Below the pieces are notes generated by a model that was not told the DNA's origin, searched no databases, and saw nothing but the letters and a program-made list of their open reading frames with translations. A program made the translations under genes and the position numbers. A DNA stretch of 64,000 nucleotides, from the NCBI RefSeq assembly GCF_030373445.1, contig NZ_JAUCYU010000003.1:1-64000 (forward strand), given 5' to 3'. The DNA comes from Roseovarius sp. GTDB lineage: Bacteria > Pseudomonadota > Alphaproteobacteria > Rhodobacterales > Rhodobacteraceae. Positions 13,042-53,480 of this stretch are shown here, in pieces (the stretch's first letter is position 1; every line of letters starts with the position of its first letter).

Positions 13042-13253
13042 CGTGCTGCCACGCCCGAAGCGGTGTCGACCCGGCAGGACTCGATCCAGGCCCGGAGATC
13101 GCCAACGCGATAGCGAACACTCCGGCCAATCTTGACCATCGGGGGCCCGTCCCCACGCACTGCGGAGACTTCCAGAAAACGTTGTGTGAGACCGAAGTAG
13201 CTGTGTACTTCACTCCGGCTCAAGAGACGGTCATCATTGAGGATTGTTTGCAT
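13038..13253 (-). CDS. AlpA/excisionase-like DNA-binding protein
   Basis: A 71-residue protein if started at the ATG at 13253 (MQTILNDDRLLSRSEVHSYF). A longer version from 13286 adds 11 residues. It has the MerR-like winged helix typical of AlpA/Xis proteins: LLSRSEVHSYFGLTQRFLE, then GPPMVKIGRSVRYRVGDLRA and WIESC. Such proteins direct excision by the integrase or control element genes. It lies between the unknown 498-aa gene and the HTH_36 gene in a leftward cluster that begins with a tyrosine integrase, which fits a small integrative element. Confidence 0.8.
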   Translation of the reverse strand: MQTILNDDRLLSRSEVHSYFGLTQRFLEVSAVRGDGPPMVKIGRSVRYRVGDLRAWIESCRVDTASGVAAR

Positions 13254-13353
13254 TGGGACTGCTCCATGTTGCTCGATGCAACCCAATGTTCACCGTTCAG
13301 GCAAAGAAATCATTGGTCGGGATTCGCTTCGATTGGATTGAAACGAAATCCAA

Positions 13354-14850
13354 CTACAGGTTCCGCTTTTTTCGTTCTTTGGCGATTGCCTTTTGAAGTC
13401 GAATTTCAGCGGCCCCCAATGAATATGAGCGGATTTCCTTTCGCCCGGGTTCCCACTTGCTCTCAGGGATTTCGCCGTATTTTGCCACCAAGAGCTGTGC
13501 CGCATTGAGCGCGCTCTTTGCCTGGCCGGTTTCAAGCATGTTCAGGCCTTCCTCGATGAAGGGCGCATCCACGGACGTGAACCCCTGATTGGATTTGCGA
13601 GTTTGTTGTCGCCTCGGCTGATCATCAGTCGCTGAGAGCATTGGCACCTTAGCAGAAGGCGCCATATCGCGGACCAAGACAAACCGCAGCCTATCGGCAC
13701 CGAGTGCGAGTTTCGCCCGTTCATCCAGATCGAAGCATCCGGTTATGCCCAGGTCTTCTGGAAGTGCAAGGTCGCCATTCTCAGTAAGGCTCGGAAATCG
13801 ATCCGGCGGAACCCAGGTGAAGTACCCGCCTTCCAGACCATCTTCGGCAAGGCAAAGCGCCCATCCTTCCTTCACTGCTTGCCAAGCCATTTGCGTGGAA
13901 AAGAAGATGAGTACATTGAGAGGATCAGCATCCGCCCGATAGTTCTGGTGATCGGACATCGCGCCATAACTCGGGAAAAGCTCGCTAATCGTCTGGTCGG
14001 GCACGAGCGGCTCACTATAGAAAACGGACCCCAAGTCACTCAACCCGTCTAGAACAGGAAAGTCTTCATCCTTAATGGCATGACCGAGTTGTTCTAGGTG
14101 GAGACCAAGTTTGGACACAACGAGCTCGGATTGCGTATCAGCATATGACCGAGTTGCGGGTTCTAGCACGTGTCGCCGTGCCTTTTCTCGCATTTCCTCG
14201 AGCCACCCGCTTTCCCGTCGGTTTTGGCGAGCCAACTCGCTATTCCAGAAATGCCATTTTGGTGGCAATCTATGGGCTCTCTTCCTCACCAAGCCATCCA
14301 AGCCGACGAAAGCAGCCGCTGCCCTGGTCATACCCAGCTCGAATGCTGCAAGATCAGTCATGTAATCGACCACAAGCGCTCTCACGGCGTTCATCAATTC
14401 GGATAGTTCAGAACGCGCGATCACCGCCTGCAATTCCTCTGGTTTGGCATCAGCAAGTGCGTCGGCAATGCGATACCTCCTAGAGACAGCGGACGGAAAA
14501 TCGAAATCTCCAAACCGGACGTTTGCAATATCGGCGTCACTTTCTGCGATTTCTTTTAGGCGATGATATCTGTTGGCATGACCCTCGCCGGGCTTATCCC
14601 TTGTGATGTCCATTGCCTTCGAAAGCCGATCGTCGAGCCTTGCGGCGGCAAAAAGTGCGTCACTCAGCTCCTCGCATCTCTCGAAACGGTAACCAGTCTT
14701 TTTCAGCGCGGCTTCGTCCGAACTTGGCGCATGTCGGCAAGCATTTGTTAATTCGCCGCACAGAAGAAGCGCGTTGCCAAGCAACGCGACAACAAGATCG
14801 TTCAAGGTAATCGGACCGGTATCTGTCACTGTTCCTCGCCGTGACTGCAT
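13354..14850 (-). CDS. Hypothetical 498-aa protein of the integrative element
   Basis: I do not recognise this protein. It is soluble, largely helical and acidic in the first two thirds. There is no signal peptide, membrane segment or Walker/HNH/nuclease motif that I can see. Notable parts are the N-terminal LVVALLGNALLLCGELTNAC, a charged middle (ARQNRRESGWLEEMREKARR), a W/F-rich segment near residues 320-350 (FFSTQMAWQAVKEGWALCLA, YFTWVPPDRFP) and a basic C-terminal tail (RLQKAIAKERKKRN). It sits between the integrase and the AlpA-like gene, the usual place for cargo in small integrative elements. Base composition is less GC-rich than the surrounding chromosome, consistent with recent arrival. 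Cargo, defence or replication roles are all possible. Confidence 0.65.
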   Translation of the reverse strand: MQSRRGTVTDTGPITLNDLVVALLGNALLLCGELTNACRHAPSSDEAALKKTGYRFERCEELSDALFAAARLDDRLSKAMDITRDKPGEGHANRYHRLKEIAESDADIANVRFGDFDFPSAVSRRYRIADALADAKPEELQAVIARSELSELMNAVRALVVDYMTDLAAFELGMTRAAAAFVGLDGLVRKRAHRLPPKWHFWNSELARQNRRESGWLEEMREKARRHVLEPATRSYADTQSELVVSKLGLHLEQLGHAIKDEDFPVLDGLSDLGSVFYSEPLVPDQTISELFPSYGAMSDHQNYRADADPLNVLIFFSTQMAWQAVKEGWALCLAEDGLEGGYFTWVPPDRFPSLTENGDLALPEDLGITGCFDLDERAKLALGADRLRFVLVRDMAPSAKVPMLSATDDQPRRQQTRKSNQGFTSVDAPFIEEGLNMLETGQAKSALNAAQLLVAKYGEIPESKWEPGRKEIRSYSLGAAEIRLQKAIAKERKKRNL

Positions 14851-14887
14851 ATAGGGATAAGCGCGGAGCTCTTTTCCGCGACGTACA

Positions 14888-15967
14888 TCAAGACCCTTCA
14901 GAACGCAGGGCCAGTTCTTTGCAAATTACGTCCATCGGTGGCCTCAGGGCATCCAGCGATGGTTTGGCGTATCTTTGACCTGTAATCGACAGCGGCGTGT
15001 GATTGAGTAACCGCCCCACGATCTCTTCCAGAACCCCTGCCTCCATGGCCACAGTCGCAAACGTGCGCCGGTGGGCGTGCGGAGACCATTTGATCTTCTC
15101 AGGGGCACCTACATGGCCGGACGGGGCCTTTGGCGATGGAAACACCCACTTTCGGCTCAACCCCTGTATCGGCGCCAGTATCTCATGATGTTTTTGAAGG
15201 ATTGGCAGATCGAAGCTACGGCCGTTTTTCGTCATCGGAAGATGAATGTGATCTTCGCGCACGTTCTTCCATTCAAGGGTCAGCGCTTCAGTTTTGCGCA
15301 ACCCGGTGAACAGTATCAGCTCATAAAAAACCTTGTGTATCGGATTGTAGAGATCATCCACTGCATGGCGCCAGCCTTTCAGATCTTCGATAATGGTGCC
15401 CTTCGGCTGCTCGTCGTACCATTCGATTGCCATAGTTGGAGCCTCTGGCAGATCATGAATGCGCCTAGCATGGTTCCAAACCGTCCGAAACATTTTCAAA
15501 GTGTGGTTGGCTGCAGATGGCGTGGCGGCCATGGACCGATGCCGCTCCACCACCATTGACTTGGAGATCTCGTCGAGCGGTAGGCGCATCCAGTCTTTCA
15601 GATGCAGGTCGAACTGGTGTCGGACGTTATGTTTGTGCGTCTCCGAACGAAGTCTGGGCCTGACAAGATACGCTTCCATCGCGGCAGCCAATGTCGGGGC
15701 CCCGATTTGAGTTTGCTTGCCAGCCCCCCTACCCCATTCGAGTGCAAACCCCAAGGCCGTCTGACGAGCCGCGTCTGCCGAGATCACCGGAAATCGACCT
15801 ATCAGGATCCGCCGCGTCTGACCGCCCACATCCTTCTGATAATACCAGGTCTTGGACTTCTTCCCCACAAACAAAACGAGGCCTCTGACCTCGCTATCCC
15901 AATACTTGTCTGTACCTGATTTTGTCTGTGGAACTTTGCGAGCGAACGTTTCTGTGAGCTTGGGCAT
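14888..15967 (-). CDS. Tyrosine-type site-specific integrase (DUF4102-type N-terminus)
   Basis: A 359-residue phage/ICE-type integrase. The N-terminal DUF4102-like part (SEVRGLVLFVGKKSKTWYYQ, RRILIGRFPVISADAARQTA) is followed by a SAM-like core-binding domain (about 92-185) and the catalytic domain. Catalytic residues are visible: Arg224 (TGLRKTEAL), His297 and Arg300 (HAHRRTF), His323 (LLNHTP) and the nucleophile Tyr333 (GQRYAK). All are present, so it should be active. It reads leftward away from a tRNA-Gly 5' half located 130-165 bases upstream, which suggests the attachment site. The start codon region carries two direct copies of CCGACAAAA, and no strong ribosome site is seen. Confidence 0.92.
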   Translation of the reverse strand: MPKLTETFARKVPQTKSGTDKYWDSEVRGLVLFVGKKSKTWYYQKDVGGQTRRILIGRFPVISADAARQTALGFALEWGRGAGKQTQIGAPTLAAAMEAYLVRPRLRSETHKHNVRHQFDLHLKDWMRLPLDEISKSMVVERHRSMAATPSAANHTLKMFRTVWNHARRIHDLPEAPTMAIEWYDEQPKGTIIEDLKGWRHAVDDLYNPIHKVFYELILFTGLRKTEALTLEWKNVREDHIHLPMTKNGRSFDLPILQKHHEILAPIQGLSRKWVFPSPKAPSGHVGAPEKIKWSPHAHRRTFATVAMEAGVLEEIVGRLLNHTPLSITGQRYAKPSLDALRPPMDVICKELALRSEGS

Positions 15968-19991: not shown

Positions 19992-20082
19992 TTGAATCTC
20001 TCCCGTTGCTGCGCCCCTGCGGCGCTTGTGATTGGTCTGCGGGGTCGAATCGCAGACTTCTGCAACAATAATTCGCCTTTAT

Positions 20083-20105
20083 CGAAATTTTGTAAATGAA
20101 TTTCG
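20083..20105. promoter_or_regulatory. Inverted repeat in the divergent promoter region, probable XRE operator
   Basis: CGAAATT (20083-20089) and AATTTCG (20099-20105) form a perfect 7-bp inverted repeat with a 9-base spacer in the 175-base AT-richer gap between the binding protein gene and the XRE-cupin gene. Position and symmetry suit autoregulation by the XRE protein. Binding itself is inferred. Confidence 0.5.
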
Positions 20106-20166
20106 TTGTAATCAGATTTTATACCGCTGTATGCTCCCCTTGACCGGGAACAGCGGAAGCCAGAGC

Positions 20167-20847
20167 ATGACAGGACAGAGCAACGTAAAAGCCATGGCCA
20201 AAAGCCTTCTGACAATGGGCTCGGAGGTGCGCCAGCTGCGCAAGGCCCGTCAGATGACGCTCAAGGACCTGAGCGCGACCAGCGGCGTTTCCCTCAGCCA
20301 TCTCAGCACTATCGAACGCGGGATGTCCCAGCCTTCGATGGACGCGCTTACCGCCATCGCCGATGCGCTTTCGGTGACGCCCGACTGGTTCTTCGCCCGC
20401 CGTCCCGGTGCAGGCCCGATGGAGCAGGCCTATGTCGTGCGTGCCCAGAACCGCCGCAACCTGAATTCTCTTTACGGCCAGGATGCGCAACAACTCGGTT
20501 ATACCGATACGCTGATCTCCAGTTCCATCGGCGGCAACTTCTACATGGGCCTCGCCGTTTACCAGCCCTATTCCGAGCGGCCCGACGACCCGCTGCACAA
20601 GCATGAAGGCGAACAGCACGGCCTGATCCTCGAGGGCGAGCTCGAAATGCAGATCGGCGACGAGGTGATCACCCTGCGCGCCGGCGACAGCTACAGCTTC
20701 GACGCCCGCATCCCGCACCACGCCCGCAACAGAACCGACAAGAGCTGCAAACTGATCTGGGCCGTTTCGCCCGTCGTGATCCCCAAGGATGTCCGCCACA
20801 ACGACGAAGGCCGCGGCACCGAGTCCCCCGAAAGTGACCGCAAATGA
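20167..20847 (+). CDS. XRE-family transcriptional regulator with cupin domain
   Basis: A 226-residue regulator. The ATG at 20167 is preferred over upstream non-ATG starts because it gives a standard N-terminus. The helix-turn-helix spans about 18-75 (GSEVRQLRKARQMTLKDLSA, SHLSTIERGMSQPSMDALTA). A C-terminal cupin (about 140-215) has HKHEGEQHGLILEGELEMQI and SYSFDARIPHHARN, which can hold an effector or metal. This XRE-cupin arrangement is typical of repressors of amine or amino-acid catabolic genes. It overlaps the flavin oxidoreductase start as ATGA and faces the binding-protein gene, so it probably controls both sides. Confidence 0.9.
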   Translation: MTGQSNVKAMAKSLLTMGSEVRQLRKARQMTLKDLSATSGVSLSHLSTIERGMSQPSMDALTAIADALSVTPDWFFARRPGAGPMEQAYVVRAQNRRNLNSLYGQDAQQLGYTDTLISSSIGGNFYMGLAVYQPYSERPDDPLHKHEGEQHGLILEGELEMQIGDEVITLRAGDSYSFDARIPHHARNRTDKSCKLIWAVSPVVIPKDVRHNDEGRGTESPESDRK

Positions 20848-22889
20848 AACAAGACCCGCTCCTCCAGCCCTACCAGCTGAAGCATCTCACGCTGAAGAAC
20901 CGGATCATGACGACCAGCCATGAACCGGCCTATCCCGAAGACGGCATGCCGAAAGCGCGCTATGCCGCTTACCACGCCGAGCGGGCCAAGGCCGGTGTCG
21001 CCCTTGCCATGACCGCGGGCTCCGCCGCGGTCTCGAAGGATTCGCCGCCCGTTTTCAACAACATCCTCGCCTACAAGGACGAGGTCGTGCCGTGGATCCG
21101 GCAGCTTACCGATGCCTGTCATGAACATGGCTGCGCCGTGATGATCCAGCTGACCCATCTTGGCCGCCGCACCGGCTGGAACAAGGGCGACTGGCTGCCT
21201 TCCATCTCGTCGTCGAAGCACCGCGAACCGGCGCACCGGGCGTTTCCCAAGCTGGCCGAGGACTGGGATATCGAGCGCATCATCGCCAATTTCGCCGACG
21301 CGACCGAGCGTATGAAGGAAGGCGGGATGGACGGTATCGAACTTCAGGTCTACGGCCACCTGCTCGATCAGTTCTGGTCGCCGCTGACCAACGATCTTGA
21401 CGGTCCTTACGGCGGGGCGACACTGGAAAGCCGGATGGCCTTTCCGATGGCCGTTTTGCGCGGCATCCGCGACCGCGTCGGCGAGGACTTCATCGTCGGT
21501 CTGCGCTACACCGCAGACGAGACCACCGCCGGTGGCATCACTCCGGACGAGGGCCTCGAAATCTCGAAACGGCTGGCCGACAGCGGCATGGTCGATTTCC
21601 TGAACGTGATCCGCGGCCGCATTCACACCGACCCGGCGATGACCGACGTGATACCTGTTCAGGGCATGAAAAGTGCCCCACATCTCGATTTCGCGGGCGT
21701 GGTGAAAAAGGCGACCGGCATGCCGACCTTCCACGCCGCCCGCATTCCCGACGTGGCGACGGCCCGGCACGCGGTGGCCGACGGACTGCTCGACATGGTT
21801 GGGATGACCCGTGCCCACATGGCCGACCCGCATATCGTCAAGAAGATCACCGAGGGGCGCGAAGACGATATCCGCCCTTGCGTCGGCGCCACCTATTGCC
21901 TCGACCGCATCTACGAAGCGGGAGAGGCGCTATGCATCCACAACCCGGCCACGGGGCGCGAGCTTTCGATGCCGCACGCCATCCCGCCCGCCGAGACGCG
22001 CAAGACTGTCGTCATCGTCGGCGCGGGCCCCGCCGGGCTGGAGGCCGCCCGCGTCGCGGCCGAGCGCGGGCATGACGTCACCGTCTTCGAGGCCCAGCCC
22101 GACCCCGGCGGGCAGGTGCGTCTCACCGCCCAGAACCCGCGCCGCCGCGAGATGATCTCGATCATCGACTGGCGGATGGCCCAATGCGCGGCCCGTGACG
22201 TGATCTTCCACTTCAACACCTTTGCCGAGGCCGACGACGTCACCGCCCTGAACCCGGATGTGGTAATCGTCGCCACAGGCGGGCTACCCAACACCGAGCT
22301 TTTCGAAAGCGGCCGGGAACAGCCCCTCGTGGTCACCGCGTGGGATCTGATCTCGGGCGATGTGAAACCTGCCGAAACCGTGCTGGTCTACGACGAAAGC
22401 GGTGATCACCCGGGCCTGATGGCGGCCGAGATTGCGGCCAACGCCGGGGCGGAGGTCGAGGTGATGACCCCGGACCGCACCTTCGCCTCCGACATTATGG
22501 GCATGAACCTTGTCCCCTACATGCGCACCCTGCAAGACAAGAAGACCACCTTCACCGTCGCCCGCCGCTTGCTCGACGTGACCCGCGACGGCAACAAGCT
22601 GACCGCGCGCGTCGGCACCGATTACAGCGATCACGTTTCCAAGCACTCCTATGACCAGGTGGTCGTGAACTACGGCACGCTACCGCTCGACGATCTCTAT
22701 TTCGAACTCAAGGCCCTGTCGTCGAACGCCGGCGCAGTCGACTACGACGCTCTCACTGAAGGCCGCCCGCAAAAGATCTCGCGCAACCCGGATGGCGAGT
22801 TTCAACTCTTCCGCATCGGCGATGCGGTCAGCGCGCGAAACACACACGCGGCGATCTATGATGCGCTCAGGCTGGTGAAGGACATCTGA
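20844..22889 (+). CDS. NADH:flavin oxidoreductase, dimethylamine dehydrogenase/N-methylproline demethylase type
   Basis: A 681-residue two-domain enzyme of the trimethylamine dehydrogenase/2,4-dienoyl-CoA reductase family. The FMN-binding TIM barrel spans about 5-340 (KNRIMTTSHEPAY, MIQLTHLGRRTG, GHLLDQFWSPLTNDLDGPYG). A cysteine cluster follows at C346, C352 and C364, then the Rossmann FAD/NAD part (VVIVGAGPAGLEAARVAAER at about 389). The second cysteine of the usual CxxCxxC motif is Ala349. The family removes N-methyl groups or reduces enoyl compounds. Proteins of this shape are linked to proline-betaine or dimethylamine breakdown, but the substrate here is not proven. It is co-translated with the XRE-cupin regulator. 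Confidence 0.85.
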   Translation: MKQDPLLQPYQLKHLTLKNRIMTTSHEPAYPEDGMPKARYAAYHAERAKAGVALAMTAGSAAVSKDSPPVFNNILAYKDEVVPWIRQLTDACHEHGCAVMIQLTHLGRRTGWNKGDWLPSISSSKHREPAHRAFPKLAEDWDIERIIANFADATERMKEGGMDGIELQVYGHLLDQFWSPLTNDLDGPYGGATLESRMAFPMAVLRGIRDRVGEDFIVGLRYTADETTAGGITPDEGLEISKRLADSGMVDFLNVIRGRIHTDPAMTDVIPVQGMKSAPHLDFAGVVKKATGMPTFHAARIPDVATARHAVADGLLDMVGMTRAHMADPHIVKKITEGREDDIRPCVGATYCLDRIYEAGEALCIHNPATGRELSMPHAIPPAETRKTVVIVGAGPAGLEAARVAAERGHDVTVFEAQPDPGGQVRLTAQNPRRREMISIIDWRMAQCAARDVIFHFNTFAEADDVTALNPDVVIVATGGLPNTELFESGREQPLVVTAWDLISGDVKPAETVLVYDESGDHPGLMAAEIAANAGAEVEVMTPDRTFASDIMGMNLVPYMRTLQDKKTTFTVARRLLDVTRDGNKLTARVGTDYSDHVSKHSYDQVVVNYGTLPLDDLYFELKALSSNAGAVDYDALTEGRPQKISRNPDGEFQLFRIGDAVSARNTHAAIYDALRLVKDI

Positions 22890-23088: not shown

Positions 23089-23766
23089 TTACGCTGCCTT
23101 TCTCAAACTGATCCCGAACTCGAGCTCAAGCGCGTCGGTGATGAGTTCGTAGCATGATCCGACCCGAACGACCTTCATTTCGCTGAGGTCAAGAAGGGTC
23201 GAACTCTTTTCGTACAGGTGATATTTGCGCAGTCCGTAATCCACGATGACGTCAGCAACATCGCGGATCTCGGGTTCGATATCCTCGACGCGGAACTTAG
23301 TGCCCTGCATCGTACGGTTCGCGGATGACCCGAAGAGCGGATGGCATTCTTCGCGGCTCAGCCGGGAAATTTCTGCATGAAACGCTCCGGCATTGAGAAG
23401 CATGCAGACCGTGCCATCCCGGGTCGACCGGCGCAGCCCCTCCTCGTCAAGCGCCTCGATCAGAGGGTGGTCCAGATGCGCCGGTGCAATGATGCCGAGC
23501 GGCAAGCCTCGTTCCTTGGTCAGGCAGTTCACCACGTCGCGCTGTTCCGGTGTCAGGTCGTGCAAGTCCTCTGACATGGTGTTGTCGCCGATCATGGCGT
23601 TCAGCTTGTGTTCGGCCCGTTGCTTGGCATCGAAAATCCTGATCAGTGAGGGCGTCGAGCCCCCGATCAGGGAATAACCCACATCCATCGGCAGGATCGC
23701 ACTGCCTCCGGACTTGAGTACATCGAAAGCCCGGCGCGCGTCGGCTTGGATATCGGTTCTTGCCAT
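23089..23766 (-). CDS. Sua5/YciO/YrdC-like protein in catabolic operon (copy 2)
   Basis: A 225-residue protein of the YrdC fold. The start is the ATG at 23766 (MARTDIQADARRAFDVLKSG), since the frame upstream belongs to the lyase shadow. The nucleotide-binding signatures are visible: the PMDVGYSL strand at 26-33 in place of PTDTVYGL, K48-Q-R50 with K54, and GSSAN at 146-150. It lacks the extra Sua5 domain. Known YrdC proteins make threonylcarbamoyl-AMP for tRNA or carbamoyl-adenylate. This one is the last gene of a TRAP/LeuCD-like/lyase operon and aligns in register with the copy at 26677. A role in tRNA modification is therefore unlikely. Its function in the pathway is unknown. Confidence 0.8.
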   Translation of the reverse strand: MARTDIQADARRAFDVLKSGGSAILPMDVGYSLIGGSTPSLIRIFDAKQRAEHKLNAMIGDNTMSEDLHDLTPEQRDVVNCLTKERGLPLGIIAPAHLDHPLIEALDEEGLRRSTRDGTVCMLLNAGAFHAEISRLSREECHPLFGSSANRTMQGTKFRVEDIEPEIRDVADVIVDYGLRKYHLYEKSSTLLDLSEMKVVRVGSCYELITDALELEFGISLRKAA

Positions 23767-23770
23767 GGTC

Positions 23771-24664
23771 TTATCCTTTGTCGTTCTGTTGGGACCACTT
23801 GGCTTCGAAGGCCCAGACGTCCTCGAAACCCATAAGGCGGTTGAAGTCGGAGAAATCGAAAAGCGGCTGGTTGCCACCATGGCTGGAGCCGGTTTCGCGC
23901 AAGGTAGTATAGGCTTCGCGAAGGGCGGCCCCCGCGGCGAGAAAGCCGAAGGCCGGGAAAATCGCTGCGCTGTAACCCAACTTGGCGAGCGAGGGGGCGG
24001 AAAGCACCGGCGTGCGCCCCCCTTCCACGATATTGGCCACGAGCGGCGTGTCGAAACTCTGACAGATGCGTTCCATTTCCTCTTCGCTTTCCGGGCTTTC
24101 GATGAACAGGATATCGGCGCCCGCTTTGGCATAGACTTCGCCCCGGCGCAGGGCTTCGTCCAGGCCATGGACGGTGCGCGCATCGGTTCGCGCAACGATC
24201 AGCAGTTCCGGATCATCGCGGGTGTCGATCGCCACGCGGATCTTCTGGGCCATGTCCTCGGCCGGTATCACCTTGCGGCCAAGCGTGTGGCCGCATTTCT
24301 TCGGAAACTCCTGGTCTTCGATCTGGATCGCGGCGGCGCCCGCCGCTTCGTATCCCCGCACCGTGCGCTCGAGGTTCAGCAATCCGCCAAACCCGGTATC
24401 GGCATCGGCGATGAGCGGTGTCCGGGTGCCCCCGGCGATAGCGGTGACGCGAGAGAGCATCTCGGCATAGCTGATCAGGCCCGCATCCGGAATGCCCAGG
24501 TGCGAGGCCGTCGTGCCATAGCCCGTCATATACAGCGCGTCAAAGCCGATCTGGTCGGCAATGCGCGCAGAGATCATGTCGAACACGCCGGGAATGGAGG
24601 TCAGGCCCGGCGCCCGGATACTCTCTGCCAGCCGTGTGCGGAAATGAAGATTTTGGCCCGTCAT
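23771..24664 (-). CDS. Isocitrate lyase/PEP mutase-family C-C lyase (dimethylmalate or methylisocitrate lyase type)
   Basis: A 297-residue enzyme of the ICL/PEP mutase superfamily. The ATG at 24664 overlaps the LeuD-like stop by four bases. The barrel carries the metal-site DADTGFGG (87-94), the IQIEDQEFP stretch and the catalytic loop K122-K-C-G-H126. KKCGH marks true lyases rather than mutases or hydrolases. The length matches 2,3-dimethylmalate lyase and methylisocitrate lyase rather than the larger isocitrate lyase. Its partner LeuC/LeuD-like hydratase genes directly upstream suggest it cleaves the malate-type product of that hydratase, releasing pyruvate or a similar keto acid. Confidence 0.87.
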
Positions 24665-25299
24665 GAGTGATCTCCTGAAACGGCGAGGATGTCTTTTGGC
24701 GCCCACGCCTGGCCGCCAAGATAAGCGTCGATCTTGCGCCGGGAGGTTTCGGCGCGGCGGATCGCCCGGTCGAGCGGCATGTCCCCATCGAGGATGGCTC
24801 TGCGCGCGGTCTCTTCCATCGACAGGACAAGTGCAGGCCTGCCGTCGGTCATCAGCGTACCGGTGGCGATATCTATGTGTAAGCTCGCGGTTCCGGCCGT
24901 GATATCGGGGCACAGGGCAAGGGCGGCGATCTCGTCAAGCGGTGCCGTCAGACAGGCCAGCCCGCACGTTGCCGCGTTGCCGGCGAATATCTCTCCGAAG
25001 CCGGCGGCGATGATGGCTTCGAACCCGGCATCCTGAAGCGCCCAGACCGCGTTCTCCCGCGAAGAGCCGCAGCCGAAATTTCGCCCGGCAATCAGAATGT
25101 TGGCCTTGTCATAGCGCGGGTCGTTCGTCGGGAAGCCGGGTTTCGGCGTTGCATCCGCGTGACACCGCCAGTCGGCGAAGAGCGCCTGGTCGAACCCGCC
25201 GGGCAACGTGTAGAACCGCGCGGGGTAGAGCGCATCGGTGTCCACGTCATCAAGAAAGAGCGGCATCGCGCGCCCGGTTATCGATGATTTCGCGATCAT
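24661..25299 (-). CDS. LeuD-like hydratase small subunit (aconitase superfamily)
   Basis: A 212-residue small subunit of the 3-isopropylmalate dehydratase type. The ATG at 25299 overlaps the LeuC-like stop (ATGA). The swivel-domain signature [20 protein letters not shown] is intact, preceded by [15 protein letters not shown]. It contributes substrate recognition to a heterodimeric [4Fe-4S] hydratase. The surroundings (TAXI-TRAP importer, CoA ligase, KKCGH lyase) do not fit leucine synthesis, so it is more like dimethylmaleate hydratase subunit DmdB or a citraconate-type hydratase. The substrate is inferred only from the gene set. Confidence 0.87.
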
Positions 25300-26684
25300 G
25301 TCCCTGCCCCCGCCAATGCGCCGGGATCGGTGATGACACCGGTGATCGCGGCAGCTGCGGCCGATGCGGGGCTTGCCAGATGCGTTCTGGCACCTGTCCC
25401 CTGCCGGTTCTCGAAATTCCGGTTGGTGGTTGAGACGATACGCTCTCCCGCGCCGGCCTTGTCTACGTTGAGGCCCGGGCACATGGAACAGCCGCTGTCG
25501 CGCCATTCGAAGCCGGCCTCCTTAAATATGAGGTCCAGCCCCTCGGCCTCGGCCGCGCGCTTGACGGACATGGAGCCGGGCACCACGAGCGCCCGGACAG
25601 TCGCAGCCACCTTCCGCCCCTGCAATATGGCTGCTGCCTCCCGCAGGTCGGACAGCCGCCCGTTCGTGCAGGACCCGATGAAGACCCGGTTGACCGGCGT
25701 CCCCAGCAGCGACGCGCCCGCGTCGAGCTGCATGTAGTCCAGCGCCCGGGCGTCAGCGGCGGCGGGGATCGTGCCGCAAATTGCCATGGCCTCGCCCGGG
25801 GTGGTCCCCCATGTGATCTGGGGCCGAAGACGCGAGACATCGAATGTGAGCGTCTTGTCCCATGTCGCCCCCGGATCGGTCGCGACGTCCTCGCAGGCGC
25901 GGCGCAGGGTTTCGAGCACGTCCGGCGAAGGCGCCAGCGGCCGCTTGGCGATATAGTCGAACGTTGCCTCATCCGGGGCCGTCATGCCGATGCGCGCGCC
26001 CATCTCGATCGCCATGTTGCACAGGGTCATCCGCGCCTCGACCGTCATGCCGGCAAGCGCCTCGCCGGTGAATTCGATCATGTGGCCGACACCCGCCGAC
26101 ACGCCGAATTCCGCGATCAGCCCGAGGACGATATCCTTGGCCGACCCCCCCTTGGGCAAGGTCCCCGTCAGCTCGACGCGCATCGTCCTGGGTTTGCGGA
26201 TCGCCAGCGTCTGGGTCGCCAGGACCTGTGCAATTTCAGAGGTGCCGATGCCCCAGCCCATGGCCGACACCCCGCCCATGGTGCAGGTATGACTGTCGCC
26301 GCACACAACCGTCATTCCGGGAAGGATCAGGCCGAGCTCCGGGGCGACCACATGGACAATACCCTGGTGATCGTCGTCCACGTCGAAGTGCCGTATGCCA
26401 AAGTCGCGGGCATTCCTGCGGAACATTTCGAGCATTTCCGGACCGCCCGGCACATTGCCCGTCGCACGCCCCGGATCGGTTGACACGATATGGTCCGAAA
26501 ACCCGATAACAAGGTCGGGATTGGCCACCTTCAGACCGCGTTTCCGCAACTCCTCGAACGCCCGCGGCGTTGACAGTTCGTGTAACAGCAGCCGGTCGAT
26601 GAACAGAAGGGACTGGCCATTGTCCAGTCTCTCGACCTCGTGGTTGTCCCAAACCTTGTCCAGAAAGGTCCTTGCCTCAGGCAT
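25296..26684 (-). CDS. LeuC-like hydratase large subunit (aconitase superfamily)
   Basis: A 462-residue [4Fe-4S] subunit of the isopropylmalate dehydratase family. Cluster ligands C339 ([13 protein letters not shown]), C399 and C402 ([11 protein letters not shown]) are all present. The [20 protein letters not shown] and [20 protein letters not shown] motifs are standard, so it is catalytically complete. The start at 26684 overlaps the end of the YrdC-like gene by eight bases. Together with the LeuD-like gene it should add or remove water across an alkyl-maleate or alkyl-fumarate. The operon context argues for catabolism rather than leucine synthesis. Confidence 0.88.
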
Positions 26685-27405
26685 CTTGAGCCTCGCCCAC
26701 GGCCGCCCCGCGCACCAGGTCGCGATCCGGCATCGGCGGAATCTCGATAGAGAAATGGCGGTTCAGGATGTCGCGGATCTGTTCGTAGCAAACGCCGAAC
26801 CGGTGCACCTCGAAGCTGTCCACGTCGATGATTGTCGAGGAGATTGCCATCGGGTTGTTGTAGCGGCACAGGCCGTAATCCACCTTGATGGCGGCAGCAT
26901 CAAGAACCGGGGCCTCGACATCTTGCAGGCGGAACTTCGATCCGCCGAGCGAGACATTGGCCGAAGAGCCCATGACCGGCGTTCCGTTCTGCCATGAGAT
27001 GGCCGTCAACGCCCGATGCAGGGGCCCTGCATTCAACAACAGATCGATCGTGCCGGACTTGGTCGACCGCTCGAAGCAGAACGGGTCCAGCGCCCCGGTA
27101 AAGGCGTTGCCCTCACGGTGCTTGCCGACAATGGACAGCGGCAGGTCGTAATCCTCCGTAATGGCCGCGACCACCTCTCGCGCGCGTGTGTCCACGTCAT
27201 GGACCTCGTGGAAGATGTCGCGATTGGCCAGCGTTCCGTTGGGCTTGGAAAAACTGCGCCCCTTCGCGGTGTAGATGCGCTGGATCGCCTCGGCGGTCAT
27301 GCCGAAGACCGCATAGGCCACGTCCAGGGGGATAACAGCGACGCCGCCATCTTTCATCGTTTCGTAAACGCGCTGCGCGTCCGTGTCCGGATCGAGGACG
27401 GTCAT
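26677..27405 (-). CDS. Sua5/YciO/YrdC-like protein in catabolic operon (copy 1)
   Basis: A 242-residue YrdC-fold protein. It aligns in register with the copy at 23089: PLDVAYAV at 26-33, K48-G-R50 with K54, and GSSAN at 146-150. It is otherwise quite diverged from that copy, with a longer C-terminal tail (IPPMPDRDLVRGAAVGEA). The start is two bases from the TRAP permease stop, and the end overlaps the LeuC-like start, so it is embedded in the operon. YrdC folds bind ATP and activate bicarbonate or a carbamoyl group. Two diverged copies in one operon suggest a paired or heteromeric role in the pathway. That role is not described as far as I know. Confidence 0.8.
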   Translation of the reverse strand: MTVLDPDTDAQRVYETMKDGGVAVIPLDVAYAVFGMTAEAIQRIYTAKGRSFSKPNGTLANRDIFHEVHDVDTRAREVVAAITEDYDLPLSIVGKHREGNAFTGALDPFCFERSTKSGTIDLLLNAGPLHRALTAISWQNGTPVMGSSANVSLGGSKFRLQDVEAPVLDAAAIKVDYGLCRYNNPMAISSTIIDVDSFEVHRFGVCYEQIRDILNRHFSIEIPPMPDRDLVRGAAVGEAQDA

Positions 27406-27406
27406 G

Positions 27407-29296
27407 TCAGGTCCTTTCCTGAGGAAGTTTCACGATTGGTTGGAAATTGGTGCGGGTGCCGATCCAGAAGAGGCCGAAGATCAGCACGCCAAAGATCGAG
27501 ATGTACCAGACCGGCACCAGAAGCGCGCCGCCGCTGGCGATCAGGATGAGCCGGCCCAGCCCGGTTACATGCGTGAACAGCCAGCCCGTCAGCCCGCCCG
27601 CGATCACGGCGGTGCCGGCCACGGCCGTGGCCACGGAAATGACCAGCCGGAGAGGATCGGCCGACTGCAGAAGCAGAACGGGGTCGTGGATGAAGATCAT
27701 CGGCAGGATGAAGGCGACCGCGCCAAGCGATATCGCCCGCATCGACGTCCGGATGGGGTTCGATTGCGCGATGCCCGAGGCCGCGTAGGTGGCAAGGTCC
27801 ACCGGCGGCGTGATGTGCGACAGGTTCGCGTAGTAGAAGACGAAAAGATGCACGGCGATCGGCATGTAGCCAAGCTTGATCAGCGTGGGCGCAACAACGG
27901 CCGCGGCAAGGATATAGGCCGCCGTGGCCGGCAGGCCCATCCCCAGGATGATCACCACGATCATGCCGAGGATCAGCGCAAGGATGCGGCTTTCCTGGGC
28001 GAACTCGATCAGGAATTGCGAGAACTTGATGGCAAGCCCCGTGCCGTCCATGCCACCGATGATGATGCCGGCGCAGGCACAGGCGCAGAGTATCGGCGTC
28101 GCCTGTTCGGTACTGTCGACCAACGCCGCGAAGATGGCGCGCGGCCCCATGGGCTGCAGAACCCAGGACAGGACAACACAGAAGCCGACCGTGTAGAGCG
28201 CGGCGCGCACAGGCGGGATGTCGATCGCGATGAGGCCGAGCAGAAGCAGCACCGGGATGAGATAGGGGCCACAGCGCAGCAACGCGGCGGACCGGGCCTC
28301 GCCCTCGGTATCGGAGCGGATATCGAGCTTGCGGGATTCGAAATGGACCGACAGGAACACCACGACGAAATACAGGATGGCGGGAAAGATCGCGGCGAGG
28401 ATGATGTTGCCATAGGGAACTTGCAGAAGCTCTGCCATGATGAAGGCGCCGGCCCCCATCACGGGCGGCATCAGCAGCCCCCCGGTGGAAGCCACGGCTT
28501 CGATCGCGGCGGCGAAGTAGGGGCGGAACCCGGCAGCCTTCATGAGCGGGATGGTAAAACGGCCGGTGCCGACCACGTTGGCCACCGAACTGCCGGAAAT
28601 CGTGCCCATGATGGCCGAGGAGAAGACGGCCACTTTGGCCGAACCGCCGTAAGACCCACGGGTGAATGCCCGGCTGAGATCGAGCACGCGATCCATTGTG
28701 CCCATGCGCGCCAGAAATGCCCCGAGCGAGACGAAGACGAAGATCAGCGTTACCGCGACTTTCGGCGCCACGCCGAACAGGCCCGCGCTCTGCGTGTAGA
28801 GCGAGAAAGTCATGAAGGACATGTCCCAGCCAGCGTGTCGCCACGCGGGTGGCAGCATGTTTCCAAGAAACGCATACCCGATCATTACCGTCGCGATGAT
28901 GGGCAGGGCCCAACCGAAATAGCGCCGGGTGACTTCGAGCACCGACAGGACCGCGACGACACAGGCGATCTGGTCCCATATGCTGGGAATGACCTGGCGC
29001 ACCTGGATAGCCATGTAGTTGAACACGACGTTCAGGAAGGCCGCGGAAACGGCGATGGCGAAAACAATGTTGAGTGCAGGATGGAGCCATACGCCCCGGC
29101 CACGCCGGGACGTATGAAGAAACGCAAAGGGCAGGATCAGGGCCATGGTCATGGCCGTCTGCCACATGGGCTGAAGCAGGCCGTAGTAGTTCGCCGACAG
29201 GACGAAGACCGAAATACCTGCGGCAAAGACGGCAAGACCGTTGCGCCAGAGCGCGCTACCCTTGCCGGTGCCGGTGTCTTCGAAATCTTCGTGCAC
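27407..29296 (-). CDS. TRAP transporter fused 4TM/12TM permease
   Basis: A 629-residue membrane protein that joins the small and large TRAP permease subunits, as is usual for TAXI-type systems. The first part (about 20-170) holds the four-helix DctQ-like segment. The DctM-like part follows with FSLYTQSAGLFGVAPKVAVT, the GSYGGSAKVAVFSSAIMGTI segment, GSSVANVVGTG and MPPVMGAGAFIMAELLQVPY. It uses an ion gradient to import an organic acid delivered by the TAXI protein encoded 25 bp upstream. It is central to the nine-gene operon and fixes the pathway as one for an external carboxylate. Confidence 0.92.
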   Translation of the reverse strand: MHEDFEDTGTGKGSALWRNGLAVFAAGISVFVLSANYYGLLQPMWQTAMTMALILPFAFLHTSRRGRGVWLHPALNIVFAIAVSAAFLNVVFNYMAIQVRQVIPSIWDQIACVVAVLSVLEVTRRYFGWALPIIATVMIGYAFLGNMLPPAWRHAGWDMSFMTFSLYTQSAGLFGVAPKVAVTLIFVFVSLGAFLARMGTMDRVLDLSRAFTRGSYGGSAKVAVFSSAIMGTISGSSVANVVGTGRFTIPLMKAAGFRPYFAAAIEAVASTGGLLMPPVMGAGAFIMAELLQVPYGNIILAAIFPAILYFVVVFLSVHFESRKLDIRSDTEGEARSAALLRCGPYLIPVLLLLGLIAIDIPPVRAALYTVGFCVVLSWVLQPMGPRAIFAALVDSTEQATPILCACACAGIIIGGMDGTGLAIKFSQFLIEFAQESRILALILGMIVVIILGMGLPATAAYILAAAVVAPTLIKLGYMPIAVHLFVFYYANLSHITPPVDLATYAASGIAQSNPIRTSMRAISLGAVAFILPMIFIHDPVLLLQSADPLRLVISVATAVAGTAVIAGGLTGWLFTHVTGLGRLILIASGGALLVPVWYISIFGVLIFGLFWIGTRTNFQPIVKLPQERT

Positions 29297-29321
29297 GGTT
29301 CAGCCCTCCCAGCCCGGACAA

Positions 29322-30275
29322 TCAGTCGAGCCAGCCCTGTTCGTTGTAGTAACGCTCGGCCCCCGGGTGCAGCGGCGCGATCGGCAGCAAAGACGCCTGC
29401 AGCCAATCCGGCGTCAGGTATTTCTGCGAGGGGTGGACGTTCTCGAGCTCGTCGAGGTTTTCCCACAGCGCCTTGGTCATCTTGTAGACCAAGTCTTCAT
29501 CCACATCGGCGTTGATGATGTTGATGGTGTAGCCGACGATGATCGGCACATCGGCATCCGTGCTCTGGTAGCTTTCGGCGGGCACGACACCGCCGGACAG
29601 CAGGTCGCTCGCCGCATCCACCGCCTCGATCTGCTCATCCGTCAGGCCGACGATACGGATGTCGCGTGTTGCTTCAAGTTCCAGCACACCGGCGGTGGGA
29701 ATGCCGGTGGTCTCGATGATTGCGTCAAGTGTGCCGTTCTTCAGCCCGGCCACCATTTCGCCATGGCCGATCTGGTATTCATCGATCTTGTCATAGCCGA
29801 CGCCGAGCGTTTCAAGGATCACCTTGTTGGTTTGTTCCCCGACAGACCCCACCGAGCCGACACCGACACGCAGGCCTTCGAGATCTGTCCAGTCCTGCAC
29901 GTCGCTCTCGGCCGGCACCACAAGCTGTGCGCCGTAGACGTAAATCGGCATCCAGGTGCGAACCTTGTCGGCCTTGGGCTGACCTTCGAAATTGGCGATA
30001 CTGCGGACGGCCTCGTAAGGCGCACTGTTGCCGGCGGGACCAGCCTGAATGCGGCCTTGCTGAACAAGCTGCGTCGTCGGCACGCTGGGGCCCGAGGCCT
30101 GCACGGTCATCGAGACTTCGGGCACCTCGCGATTGATGACCGAGGACCAGCCAGTCATGATCTGGAAAGTCGTATGGCCTGAGCTGGACGCACCCTGAAC
30201 GATGCTTTCCTGGGCACTCGCGGACGAGCCTGCCAGGGCCACCGCAACGGCGGCGGCCAGAATATTGAGTCTCAT
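29322..30275 (-). CDS. TAXI-family TRAP transporter solute-binding protein
   Basis: A 317-residue periplasmic binding protein of the TAXI (TRAP-associated extracytoplasmic immunogenic) family. The Sec signal peptide is MRLNILAAAVAVALAGSSAS with cleavage near SSASA-QES. Family stretches include MTVQASGPSVPTTQLVQQGR, LRVGVGSVGSVGEQTNKVIL and LDAIIETTGIPTAGVLEL. It delivers an organic acid, or in some members glutamate, to the fused permease encoded next. Substrate identity cannot be read from the sequence. A purine-rich AGGGAGG site precedes the ATG. Confidence 0.92.
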   Translation of the reverse strand: MRLNILAAAVAVALAGSSASAQESIVQGASSSGHTTFQIMTGWSSVINREVPEVSMTVQASGPSVPTTQLVQQGRIQAGPAGNSAPYEAVRSIANFEGQPKADKVRTWMPIYVYGAQLVVPAESDVQDWTDLEGLRVGVGSVGSVGEQTNKVILETLGVGYDKIDEYQIGHGEMVAGLKNGTLDAIIETTGIPTAGVLELEATRDIRIVGLTDEQIEAVDAASDLLSGGVVPAESYQSTDADVPIIVGYTINIINADVDEDLVYKMTKALWENLDELENVHPSQKYLTPDWLQASLLPIAPLHPGAERYYNEQGWLD

Positions 30276-30308
30276 TGATGTTTCCTCCCTTGAAGTTTTG
30301 GCCTCTCC

Positions 30309-31949
30309 TCAGGCCGGTTGGCTGGCCAGATCCTTAGCTTTCTGGCGCAGTACGAATTTCTGGATCTTCCCTGTCGAGGTTTTCGGCAAAGCCCCGAACA
30401 CCACGCGGCGCGGACGCTTGTACCCGGCAAGCCGGTCCCGGCAGAAAGCAATCAATTCTTCTTCCGAAGGCAGGCGGCCGGGTTTGGCTTCGACAAAGGC
30501 ACAGACGGTTTCGCCCCATTTTTCCGACGGCTCTGCCACGACCGCCACATCTAGCACGTCGTCATGTTGGTAGAGCACGCTCTCGACCTCGATGGTCGAG
30601 ACATTTTCCCCGCCCGATATGATGATGTCCTTCAGCCGATCGCGGATCTGCACATAACCGTCGGCGTGACGCACCGCGAGATCGCCGGTCGAGAACCAGC
30701 CGCCCTCGAAGGCCTTGGCCGTCGCTTCCTCGTCCTCGAGATAGCCCTTCATGACGACATTCCCGCGCAGAACGATTTCTCCCATCGTCTGGCCATCTGC
30801 CGGAACGGCTTCCCGCGTGTGAGGATCGACAACCTCCATGCCCTGCTGAGTTGCATAACGCACGCCCTGTCGGGCCTTGCGCCCTGCCAGTTCGTCTGCC
30901 CCGATTGACGGCCAGTCGGTCTGCGGCTCGCAGACCACGCAGGGGCCGTAAACCTCGGTCAGGCCGTAGACATGCGTGATCTCGATGCCGAGCTTCTCGA
31001 CATTGCCGATCACGCTTGGCGCGGGGGCTGCTCCGGCGGTGAAGGCCTGCACCTTCTGTGCAAGTGGGCGGCGCACGTTCTCCGGCGCGTTGGCCAGCAT
31101 GTTCAGGACCACGGGCGCACCACAGAAATGCGTGACGCCACATCCATTGATCGCCTCGAAGATCGCCTCTGGCTCGACCTTGCGCAGGCAGACATGCGTG
31201 CCCGCATTGGCGGTGATCGTCCACGGGAAACACCACCCGTTGCAATGGAACATCGGCAATGTCCAAAGATAGACGGGATGGCGAGGCAGGCACCAGGCTT
31301 GCTGGTTGCCCAACGCGTTCAGATAGGCACCACGATGGTGATAAAGCACGCCCTTCGGCCGCCCGGTCGTGCCCGAGGTATAGTTGAGGGCGATGGTCTG
31401 CCATTCATCCTCGACCGCGTCGGGCAGTGGGGTATCGGCCCCTTCTGCCAGAAGATCCTCGTAGGAGGGCACGCCCAGCACCGGAAGGTCCGCAGTGGCC
31501 GGGTCATTGATCTCGAACACGGTCAGGCGGTCGGACAGGCGCAAAAGAACGTCCTTGAGGGGCTGGCCCAGCTCCCTGTCGACAAGCAGCACGCGGGCAC
31601 CGGAATGGGTCAGGATATACTCGACTGTCGCCGGGTCGAGCCGCGTGTTGACCGCGTTGAGGACGGCCCCGATATGCGGCACGCCGAAATGACATTCCAG
31701 AAGCGCCGGAACGTTGGGTGCCATCACCGCGACGCAGTCACCGGTGCCGATGCCCCTACCCGACAGCGCGCTGGCCAGCCGTAAACAGCGCGCCTGCATC
31801 TCGCGGTAGCTGTACCGCCGCTCGCCGTAAACAACCGCAGTTTGGTCAGGGTGCACATCGGCCGTTCTTGAAAGAAAGGACAGCGGCGTCAGCGGCACGT
31901 GATTTGCCGCCGACATTGAAATTGCGTTCAGGTTCGGCCGTTCCGTCAT
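30309..31949 (-). CDS. Acyl-CoA ligase (AMP-binding; medium-chain/methylmercaptopropionate-CoA ligase-like)
   Basis: A 546-residue ANL-family acyl-CoA synthetase. The AMP-binding P-loop is YTSGTTGRPKGV at 190-201. Later signatures are YGLTEVYGP, GWFSTGDLAVRHADGYVQIR, DRLKDIIISGGENVSTIEVE and the catalytic lysine near the end in PKTSTGKIQKF. The overall pattern resembles DmdB-like and medium-chain ligases, but the acid it activates is unknown. Its start overlaps the GntR stop (ATGA), making it the first structural gene of the operon. It implies that the imported acid, or a breakdown product, is turned into a CoA thioester. Confidence 0.9.
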   Translation of the reverse strand: MTERPNLNAISMSAANHVPLTPLSFLSRTADVHPDQTAVVYGERRYSYREMQARCLRLASALSGRGIGTGDCVAVMAPNVPALLECHFGVPHIGAVLNAVNTRLDPATVEYILTHSGARVLLVDRELGQPLKDVLLRLSDRLTVFEINDPATADLPVLGVPSYEDLLAEGADTPLPDAVEDEWQTIALNYTSGTTGRPKGVLYHHRGAYLNALGNQQAWCLPRHPVYLWTLPMFHCNGWCFPWTITANAGTHVCLRKVEPEAIFEAINGCGVTHFCGAPVVLNMLANAPENVRRPLAQKVQAFTAGAAPAPSVIGNVEKLGIEITHVYGLTEVYGPCVVCEPQTDWPSIGADELAGRKARQGVRYATQQGMEVVDPHTREAVPADGQTMGEIVLRGNVVMKGYLEDEEATAKAFEGGWFSTGDLAVRHADGYVQIRDRLKDIIISGGENVSTIEVESVLYQHDDVLDVAVVAEPSEKWGETVCAFVEAKPGRLPSEEELIAFCRDRLAGYKRPRRVVFGALPKTSTGKIQKFVLRQKAKDLASQPA

Positions 31950-32716
31950 CCTTCGCTTTCCTTCCTGATACCGGCACGCTCCTTCGCGGGCACGAGAATG
32001 CGCTTGCCTCTCGACATCGGCACGCGGCGCGCTTGGCTGCCGGCCCGCTTCGTTTTCTTCACCGACATTCGGTCGCGGGCGGCCCAGATATGCTCACGCA
32101 TCAGCCCCGCCGCACGGTCCGCCTCCCCGGATGTCAAAGCGGCCAGAATGTTGACATGGGCCGCATGGCTCTCTGTCAACTGCTCTGCCGAGAAACTGAA
32201 GAAGTTTCGCAACGCCAGGGGCAGGTCCGCTGTCGACGCGATCTGGCGCAGCAGGAATTCATTGCCGCAATTGTCATAAATCTGCCGGTGAAACCGGTGG
32301 TTCATCTTGAGAAACCACGCCCGCTGTTCTGCACTGTGGTCCGGAATGTATACAATTTCCTCCATTTGCCGGGTCAACTCCGTCAATTCCCTGACAAGGA
32401 CTGCCGACAGGCCGCGACGCCCGCTCAGCCTGACGGCCTCGGCCTCCAGGATCGCCCGCACGCCATAGATCGCCCGCACATCCTCGATCGAGAAGACCGT
32501 GACGCGATATCCGCGGTTCGCTTCCCATGTCAGAAATCCCTCGGCCTCAAGCCGCGCCAGAGCGATCCGGACGGGCGTTCGCGAGACCTGCGTATCCCTG
32601 GCAAGCTGCGTCTCGGACATCTTGTGCCCCATGGGAAACTGTCCATCGCAAATGCGCACCTTGATGTGCTCATAGGCGATCTGGGCCAAGCTGTTATCTT
32701 CCATTTTCCCGTCCAT
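31946..32716 (-). CDS. GntR-family regulator, FCD type
   Basis: A 256-residue regulator with an N-terminal winged helix (about 8-75: AYEHIKVRICDGQFPMGHKM, TQLARDTQVSRTPVRIALAR) and a C-terminal FCD effector domain (about 85-215). The metal-binding residues expected of FCD are suggested by FLKMNHRFHRQIY and ESHAAHVNIL. A lysine/arginine-rich tail of about 35 residues follows (KKTKRAGSQARRVPMSRGKR), which is unusual in length and charge. It heads the leftward operon and overlaps the ligase gene by four bases, so it is probably an autoregulated local repressor responding to the pathway acid. Confidence 0.9.
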   Translation of the reverse strand: MDGKMEDNSLAQIAYEHIKVRICDGQFPMGHKMSETQLARDTQVSRTPVRIALARLEAEGFLTWEANRGYRVTVFSIEDVRAIYGVRAILEAEAVRLSGRRGLSAVLVRELTELTRQMEEIVYIPDHSAEQRAWFLKMNHRFHRQIYDNCGNEFLLRQIASTADLPLALRNFFSFSAEQLTESHAAHVNILAALTSGEADRAAGLMREHIWAARDRMSVKKTKRAGSQARRVPMSRGKRILVPAKERAGIRKESEG

Positions 32717-53476: not shown

Positions 53477-53480
53477 CGGC

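Follow-up and report, generated by a model that had tools for sequence, protein, structure and literature searches.

The window analysed here, a 64,000-nucleotide stretch of Roseovarius sp. DNA (positions 1 to 64,000 of contig NZ_JAUCYU010000003.1), includes a nine-gene operon in which two genes encode diverged proteins of the Sua5/YrdC type, YrdC-A (P0002; 26677-27405, minus strand, 242 amino acids) and YrdC-B (P0001; 23089-23766, minus strand, 225 amino acids). The two proteins have the predicted fold and the ATP-binding residues of TsaC/Sua5 together with an altered threonine motif, they are accessory in a genome that has its own canonical Sua5, and they belong to a discrete subfamily with catabolic neighbours, in which the A and B kinds co-occur with each other and with a C-C lyase. 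Taken with its relatives in other Proteobacteria, the pair suggests an undescribed ATP-using subfamily that has shifted from tRNA modification to catabolism.

Alignment of YrdC-A with YrdC-B showed 36% identity (81 of 222 columns, E 1e-52), and both proteins retain K48-x-R50, K54 and GSSAN at residues 146-150 in the same register. An earlier note on this DNA had described two proteins of 225 and 242 residues that share these positions and diverge elsewhere, a description that the alignment bears out. The scores against the Sua5/YrdC superfamily profile PF01300 were 35.8 bits for YrdC-A and 37.5 bits for YrdC-B, above the gathering score of 25.1, and a search of Pfam revealed no second domain in either protein. 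The AlphaFold models are confident (mean predicted local distance difference test, pLDDT, 93.9 and 92.7), and Foldseek comparisons of both models retrieved TsaC/Sua5 folds, with E values of about 1e-11 to Sua5/TsaC2; the top match was Sua5 (6f89) for YrdC-A and SMU.1377c (3l7v) for YrdC-B. The profile, the mutual identity and the confident models matching TsaC/Sua5 folds indicate that the resemblance goes beyond a motif shared by chance.

The genome includes three PF01300 matches, the window pair (37.4 and 36 bits in the genome search) and a canonical Sua5 of 328 amino acids that scored 191.7 bits. Since the canonical protein is encoded on another contig (C7), the YrdC pair is accessory and separate from the housekeeping Sua5; the comparison with the genome's own Sua5 that had been called for at the outset hence shows that the pair is not the only Sua5/TsaC of the organism. 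Furthermore, the pair scored 37.2 and 27.7 bits with the equivalog model TIGR00057, far below its cut-off of 123.2, and does not qualify by it as threonylcarbamoyl-AMP synthase.

In Pyrococcus Sua5, residues K56xR58 and S143xN145 bind ATP and T33, S181 and R195 bind threonine (PMC10321239). A residue map was generated by aligning 111 family members with 40 canonical Sua5 rows, among which the genome's own Sua5 appears twice. The KxR/SxN tetrad that binds ATP in TsaC/Sua5, as well as Tyr31 and Arg201 with its RxG, are kept in all 111 members, and one serine in 97%; because of this invariance the nucleotide site of the subfamily is judged to be intact. The PTET motif is altered. The T of this motif that contacts threonine is assigned here by assumption, and each of the two T positions is altered in 110 of the 111 members. 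The first is T in 40/40 canonical rows and in a single family member (L111, of the B clade defined below); the 61 non-B members have L (49), V (11) or F (1), and the 50 B members M (42), N (4), S (2), V (1) or T (1). The second is V in 107/111 members and T in one. The residues at the canonical T-E-T are L27-D28-V29 in YrdC-A and M27-D28-V29 in YrdC-B, such that the presumed threonine-binding Thr of TsaC/Sua5 is replaced by L and M, respectively. The canonical Arg135 is Leu in 100% of the members and Pro137 is Asn in 98%, the columns of canonical H243-Y244 are absent from all of them and, at 225 and 242 amino acids, the window pair lacks the C-terminal SUA5 domain and gate loop. Consistent differences between B and non-B members were found at positions 27 (M/L), 57 (A/G), 91 (G/S) and 156 (T/S). 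This pattern of conservation and replacement points to a nucleotide site that was retained and an acceptor site that was rebuilt, apparently in different ways in the B and non-B kinds. The typical residue signature of the subfamily is P-[LMVN]-D-V-[GA]-Y, LLNAG and GSSAN. The median net charge, computed for the whole protein, is about -4 in both clades and -3 in the canonical rows.

A pattern scan over one genome per species identified 67 family loci, all of them in proteobacterial records and, where the title is informative, in alpha- or beta-proteobacteria. When a 30-row family model was searched against 385 genomes of the class to which the window belongs, the Alphaproteobacteria, the scores were separated by gaps: 26 genomes reached at least 265 bits, five were found at 105-139 bits and all others were below 50 bits. 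The YrdC-like pair is part of a discrete subfamily. Carriers were two of 120 genomes in the family of the window (338.9 and 240 bits), two of 398 in a sample of the phylum (next match, 61.6 bits) and 12 of 300 in the order of genome G682, each of these 12 with a single copy. In the class sample, copies per genome are lower bounds, as at most seven first-look candidates for the YrdC family and at most six for the lyase were scored in each genome. The distribution is patchy, and horizontal spread would fit it. One annotated family record names its proteins just 'Sua5/YciO/YrdC/YwlC family protein'.

In a tree rooted with a Sua5 outgroup, window YrdC-B is found inside a B clade of 50 rows (Shimodaira-Hasegawa-like approximate likelihood ratio test, SH-aLRT, 99) and YrdC-A outside it, on a long, weakly placed branch. 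The possibility that window YrdC-A is the orthologue of an A clade was set aside; 'A' designates a grade that comprises all rows outside the B clade. The 26 carrier genomes of the class sample comprise 13 with two copies, seven with non-B only and six with B only. All 13 two-copy genomes harbor one B and one non-B copy, although for G185 and G279 one copy of each pair is not in the tree and its kind was assigned by likeness to relatives. The number of genomes shared by A and B, 13, compares with 0.99 expected under independence; these genomes belong to five families, and the sum at the family level gives p of about 7e-6 to 1e-5 (166 or 150 families assumed). In the window, L035 and L037 the two genes share a strand and are near each other; they are adjacent and divergent in L132, L133, L138, L139 and L141, loci from two families, whereas further genomes have them unlinked. 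At L069 (1249-1967) a non-B YrdC gene is interrupted by a frame change; this locus had been considered an adjacent A and B pair, which was ruled out when it proved to be one match split by the frame change.

The genes surrounding the subfamily were counted for 71 members (38 non-B, 29 B and four of an intermediate group), no two of which share 85% identity or more, after removal of five fragmentary or mis-cut rows (L068, L069 twice, L070 and a mis-cut copy of L139). Most classes were named by the Pfam matches of representatives, which back Hydantoinase_A/B, Isochorismatase, MmgE/PrpD, CoA_transf_3, Carboxyl_trans, Amidase, MaoC and others, and Bug by the annotation of L004; HMGL, acyl-CoA dehydrogenase, CoA-transferase A/B, SDR, LuxA, TauD and ABC ATPase were named from the sequence start only. 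Within 4 kb the most frequent neighbours were HyuA, HyuB and isochorismatase-type genes (15 members each), the lyase (14) and Bug binding proteins (13), followed by MmgE/PrpD (11), CoA-transferase III and amidase (10 each), LeuC-type (7; two in the window, two in Variovorax and three others) and LeuD (5); at least one of 12 chosen catabolic classes, among them HyuA/B, isochorismatase, amidase, hydratases and the lyase, was present in 48/71 members. Comparison of a near zone (0-4 kb) with a far one (5.5-9.5 kb) in the 45 members with full flanks gave near/far counts of 10/0 for HyuB, 9/0 for HyuA and for isochorismatase, 8/1 for the lyase and for amidase, 6/0 for LeuC, 5/2 for MmgE and 12/6 for Bug, with the reverse for ABC ATPase (4/8) and SDR (2/6). 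An isochorismatase-YrdC fusion hinted at by long open frames was inspected and rejected.

An arrangement unlike that of the window is conserved in ten loci (L005, L010, L011, L012, L014, L018, L022, L026, L029 and L031; two named SAR116), where a B-type YrdC gene directly follows a biotin-type carboxyltransferase gene and has on its 3' side an oppositely oriented amidohydrolase gene and then, where the contig reaches, an aminotransferase gene. A distant YrdC group lies beside a TENA/PQQC-like protein and an amidohydrolase in L114, L115, L118 and L119. Of these, L114 (6544-14427) and L119 (5450-10240), from the intermediate group, include besides these three genes a second YrdC gene whose product is more canonical in score (118 and 133 bits to PF01300), and genes for an aconitase and an HMGL-like protein are also present in L114. 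A cluster of catabolic appearance that contains two diverged YrdC genes is thus not confined to the family.

The association with the lyase was analysed at the level of the genome, a close relative being defined by a score of at least 300 bits, a cut-off picked after viewing the list (at E 1e-60, 127/385 genomes match); carrier G367 is narrowly below it, with a fragment of 297.5 bits. Close relatives were found in 45/385 genomes of the class, namely 17/26 carriers and 28/359 non-carriers (Fisher p 1e-11; family-level sum, p about 5e-5 to 9e-5 with 150 or 166 families assumed), and among carriers in 13/13 two-copy and 4/13 single-copy genomes. The top-scoring lyase is on a contig apart from both YrdC genes in eight of the 13 two-copy genomes and within a few kb of one of them in the other five. 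The earlier note had asked whether the YrdC genes always co-occur with the LeuCD-like and lyase genes; for the lyase they did so in every two-copy genome, at genome level, and for LeuCD they did not (LeuC in 7/71 neighbourhoods, LeuD in 5/71).

Plasmids of Skermanella and Azospirillum carry LeuCD-lyase-transporter modules with no YrdC-family match in the 15-17 kb examined. A lyase clade private to YrdC carriers was not seen, as the lyases of carrier genomes are scattered among others in the tree. Since such modules occur without YrdC and the carrier lyases form no clade of their own, the YrdC pair seems to have been added to a hydratase-lyase core to which it does not itself belong. The idea that the nine genes are a conserved unit was rejected, because the YrdC genes seldom have LeuCD as a partner, often occur as single copies and are missing from some LeuCD-lyase modules; the caution that related clusters might lack the YrdC genes therefore applied in part to the nine-gene set and did not apply to the YrdC pair and the lyase at the genome level. 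Among the loci examined, only a Variovorax plasmid cluster (L004) repeats lyase, two YrdC genes, ligase and LeuCD; there, Bug binding proteins substitute for TAXI-TRAP, and the two YrdC proteins both belong to the B clade. Two further modules with an aconitase-type and an ICL/PEP-mutase lyase gene are located on contig C18 (450 kb) of genome G000 (L225, 8427-11471; L226, 8845-11591), with no YrdC-family match in the 18-19 kb around each.

The coordinates of the operon (23089-32716), as well as Pfam and NCBIfam, agree with the initial description of nine genes, all on the minus strand at the positions given beforehand, separated by overlaps or very short gaps. The junctions range from an 8-bp overlap to a 33-bp gap. 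From the 5' end they are a 4-bp overlap of GntR and ligase genes, gaps of 33 bp (ligase-TAXI), 25 bp (TAXI-TRAP) and 1 bp (TRAP-YrdC), overlaps of 8 bp (YrdC/LeuC), 4 bp (LeuC/LeuD) and 4 bp (LeuD/lyase), and a final 4-bp gap (lyase-YrdC). Pfam matches over the nine products were GntR with FCD, AMP-binding, NMT1_3, DctM, Sua5_yciO_yrdC twice, Aconitase, Aconitase_C and PEP_mutase. The first gene encodes a GntR/FCD-family transcriptional regulator (31946-32716, 256 amino acids), for which none of the NCBIfam models passed its cut-off among the 20 matches listed. It is followed by an AMP-binding acyl-CoA synthetase (30309-31949, 546 amino acids; NF006020, 830.5 bits, cut-off 677) and by a TAXI-TRAP transporter with both components above their NCBIfam cut-offs, the TAXI-type solute-binding protein (29322-30275, 317 amino acids; TIGR02122, 231.5 bits, cut-off 84.35) and a fused TRAP permease with a GTG start (27407-29296, 629 amino acids; TIGR02123, 548.5 bits, cut-off 320.65). 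Downstream of YrdC-A are the large subunit of a LeuC/aconitase-type hydratase (25296-26684, 462 amino acids; Aconitase, 494.8 bits), one of five aconitase-family loci in the genome, and the small LeuD/aconitase-type subunit (24661-25299, 212 amino acids). The LeuC-type protein passed the cut-off of PRK12466 and missed that of the leuC equivalog TIGR00170 (535.1, cut-off 560.25), and the LeuD-type protein is below the LeuD cut-offs (TIGR00171, 100.7, cut-off 116.25); broader LeuC subfamily models were matched above cut-off, and both subunits fall outside the isopropylmalate isomerase equivalogs. The ICL/PEP-mutase superfamily C-C lyase, with the KKCGH motif (23771-24664, 297 amino acids; PEP_mutase, 155.5 bits), has PrpB TIGR02317 as its best NCBIfam match at 257.4 bits, below the cut-off of 354.4, and is not classed as methylisocitrate lyase.

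Convergent to the operon, positions 20032-22889 contain a regulator-like open reading frame (ORF; helix-turn-helix-cupin by eye) and an Old Yellow Enzyme-type FMN/FAD oxidoreductase of 681 amino acids, whose top NCBIfam scores, for the mycofactocin Old Yellow Enzyme and BaiCD, are both below cut-off. The region 12310-15967, the stretch of lowest G+C content in the window (0.54-0.56), includes a tyrosine-type integrase gene (14888-15967) adjoining a 498-amino-acid ORF without a Pfam match and a helix-turn-helix protein; it resembles a small integrated element. A second catabolic cluster (51048-61190) contains HyuA (59166-61190), HyuB (57400-59169), a beta-keto acid cleavage enzyme (56489-57379) and, by sequence start and model match, an SDR and a branched-chain-type ABC transporter, and an MmgE/PrpD C-terminal match is found at the end of the window (63339-63974); at loci outside the window, HyuAB and MmgE/PrpD genes often lie near members of the YrdC family.

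The known reaction of the YrdC fold is the ATP-dependent adenylation of an N-carboxy or carbamoyl group, as carried out by TsaC/Sua5, HypF and TobZ (PMC10321239). Because the ATP site and the Arg and Ser of the threonine site are kept and the threonine motif is rebuilt, adenylation of another small acid or carbamate is the economical reading. We place middling confidence in the proposal that YrdC-A and YrdC-B are TsaC-derived ATP-dependent adenylating enzymes that act on a metabolite of the pathway, with A and B performing complementary work. In this pathway, whose hydratase, lyase and ligase reactions are assigned from their superfamilies, TAXI-TRAP would import a small organic acid, the LeuCD-type hydratase would hydrate it, the KKCGH lyase would cleave the product to an alpha-keto acid and a carboxylate, and the acyl-CoA ligase would activate a carboxylate. 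The YrdC-like proteins, no longer serving threonine or tRNA, would convert a metabolite of the pathway into an adenylated carboxylate or carbamate, which on the known chemistry of the fold could be an N-carboxy or carbamoyl adenylate, and this step would feed or complete the hydratase-lyase core. A and B may form one heteromeric enzyme or handle two related substrates. We infer the ATP-dependent catalysis, the reactions, the order of the steps and the complementarity of A and B. The gene neighbours (amide and ureide hydrolases, HyuAB, hydratases, C-C lyases and CoA activation) would be compatible with an acid that has or acquires a carbamoyl or carboxyl nitrogen group. Citraconate, dimethylmaleate or a hydantoin as the specific substrate was set aside; nothing singles one out, and the literature search gave nothing. 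A stricter version, in which an A-type and a B-type component of one TsaC-derived enzyme would activate a small acid, an amino acid or a ureido acid during bacterial catabolism, in a reaction that depends on ATP and on bicarbonate or a carbamoyl group, is possible although doubtful.

Several observations weigh against these proposals. Single copies are common (13/26 carriers of the class sample, 12/12 in the order of G682) and the Variovorax pair consists of two B-clade copies, so that the combination of A and B is no strict rule; the lyase class also occurs without YrdC (28/359 genomes; Skermanella); and the co-occurrence statistics are tree-corrected by family-level sums only. The neighbour models derive from the very loci that they were used to score, none of the 12 catabolic classes is found within 4 kb in 23/71 members, there is no thinning with distance for CoA-transferase III (6/4), MaoC (1/1) or acyl-CoA dehydrogenase (1/2), and the neighbours are so varied that a single shared reaction is not obvious. 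With the replacement of Arg135 and Pro137, the chemistry itself may be changed or lost. The single copies, the location of A and B apart from each other and among different genes in several genomes (e.g. L028/L055, L021/L049) and the clade-specific residues at 27, 57, 91 and 156, which suggest different substrates, would be expected if YrdC-A and YrdC-B were independent enzymes of adjacent steps, or of two amide/ureide and organic-acid pathways, and formed no heteromer. This is a tentative alternative, somewhat unlikely in our judgement, given the one B and one non-B copy in 13/13 two-copy genomes and the closeness of A and B on one strand in three loci and their divergent adjacency in five loci of two families.

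The family-wide change of Arg135 to Leu and the wide variation of neighbours could also mean that the proteins are non-catalytic ligand sensors or chaperone-like subunits with a nucleotide site, which tune the operon or its enzymes; we consider this improbable, as the KxR/SxN tetrad and Arg201 are 100% kept in 111 members, the operon already has a GntR regulator and neither protein has a second Pfam domain. The pair might also be YciO-like proteins that act on RNA. YciO, too, is a TsaC paralog, which retains most of the active site and does not take over the role of TsaC in vivo (PMC12506659); yet the same source describes a conserved positive patch in YciO, whereas the median charge here is about -4 (whole protein, not surface), and the neighbours are catabolic among the gene classes scored, which makes this explanation very unlikely. 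That the pair are spare threonylcarbamoyl-AMP synthases for N6-threonylcarbamoyladenosine (t6A) is hardly credible: the fold, the ATP residues and the Ser and Arg of the threonine site are the same, but a canonical Sua5 is present, PTET is altered in nearly all members, TIGR00057 scores are 37.2 and 27.7 against 123.2, and the gene context is catabolic.

With respect to known systems, the window pair resembles the TsaC/Sua5 synthase (PF01300; PDB 2eqa, 6f87, 9dsq) in the fold (template modelling, TM, score 0.67-0.75 by query), the KxR/SxN tetrad and one Ser and one Arg of the threonine site, and differs from it in the replaced PTET, the change of Arg135/Pro137 to Leu/Asn, the missing SUA5 domain, the catabolic neighbours and the presence beside a canonical Sua5. 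YciO is likewise a TsaC paralog found beside a true TsaC with the active site largely kept (PMC12506659); the YrdC subfamily differs from it by having no net positive charge, catabolic neighbours and recurrent A and B pairs. In HypF and the TobZ/GdmN-type carbamoyltransferases a YrdC-like domain adenylates the carbamoyl group (PMC10321239), and Foldseek matched them to the window pair, which in contrast consists of single-domain proteins of 225 and 242 amino acids with no fused Kae1-like or other domain. Among the papers listed, no description of the subfamily was found by title or abstract (YrdC, Sua5, YciO or YwlC with catabolic, transporter, hydantoinase or carbamoyl terms), in line with the initial impression that such a role was not known as described; PMC12506659 covers the whole PF01300 family by network, and a cluster there may contain the subfamily unnamed. 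In structure, YrdC-B is closest to SMU.1377c of Streptococcus mutans (PDB 3l7v; TM 0.78, E 1.8e-12), a protein with no assigned function, which was also the sole PDB hit of YrdC-B by sequence at E 0.01; the structural alignment has 20% identity, and the two proteins differ in length. The Skermanella pSM-1 and Azospirillum AbAZ39_p3 modules have the same hydratase-lyase core, with lyases of the same class, and differ from the window in the absence of a YrdC match over 15-17 kb and of an annotated acyl-CoA ligase, and in the TctCBA or ABC transporter that replaces TAXI-TRAP. The 2-methylcitrate cycle, composed of PrpB, PrpC, PrpD/AcnD and PrpE, is analogous in its lyase, aconitase-type hydratase and acyl-CoA ligase; the window operon differs in that it has no PrpC, its lyase is below the PrpB cut-off and two YrdC-like proteins are added.

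Proteins of the YrdC fold are known for making threonylcarbamoyl-AMP in tRNA modification and carbamoyl adenylates in HypF and TobZ. If the stricter, two-component version is true, it would be, to our knowledge, the first instance in which free-standing YrdC proteins work in catabolism, away from tRNA, hydrogenase maturation and antibiotic tailoring. Free-standing YrdC paralogs are easily mis-named TsaC/Sua5, which the residue signature and the set of A, B and lyase would prevent. The A and B proteins would be a defined enzyme pair for assay, and could reveal an ATP-dependent step in the breakdown of amide, ureide or substituted dicarboxylate compounds.

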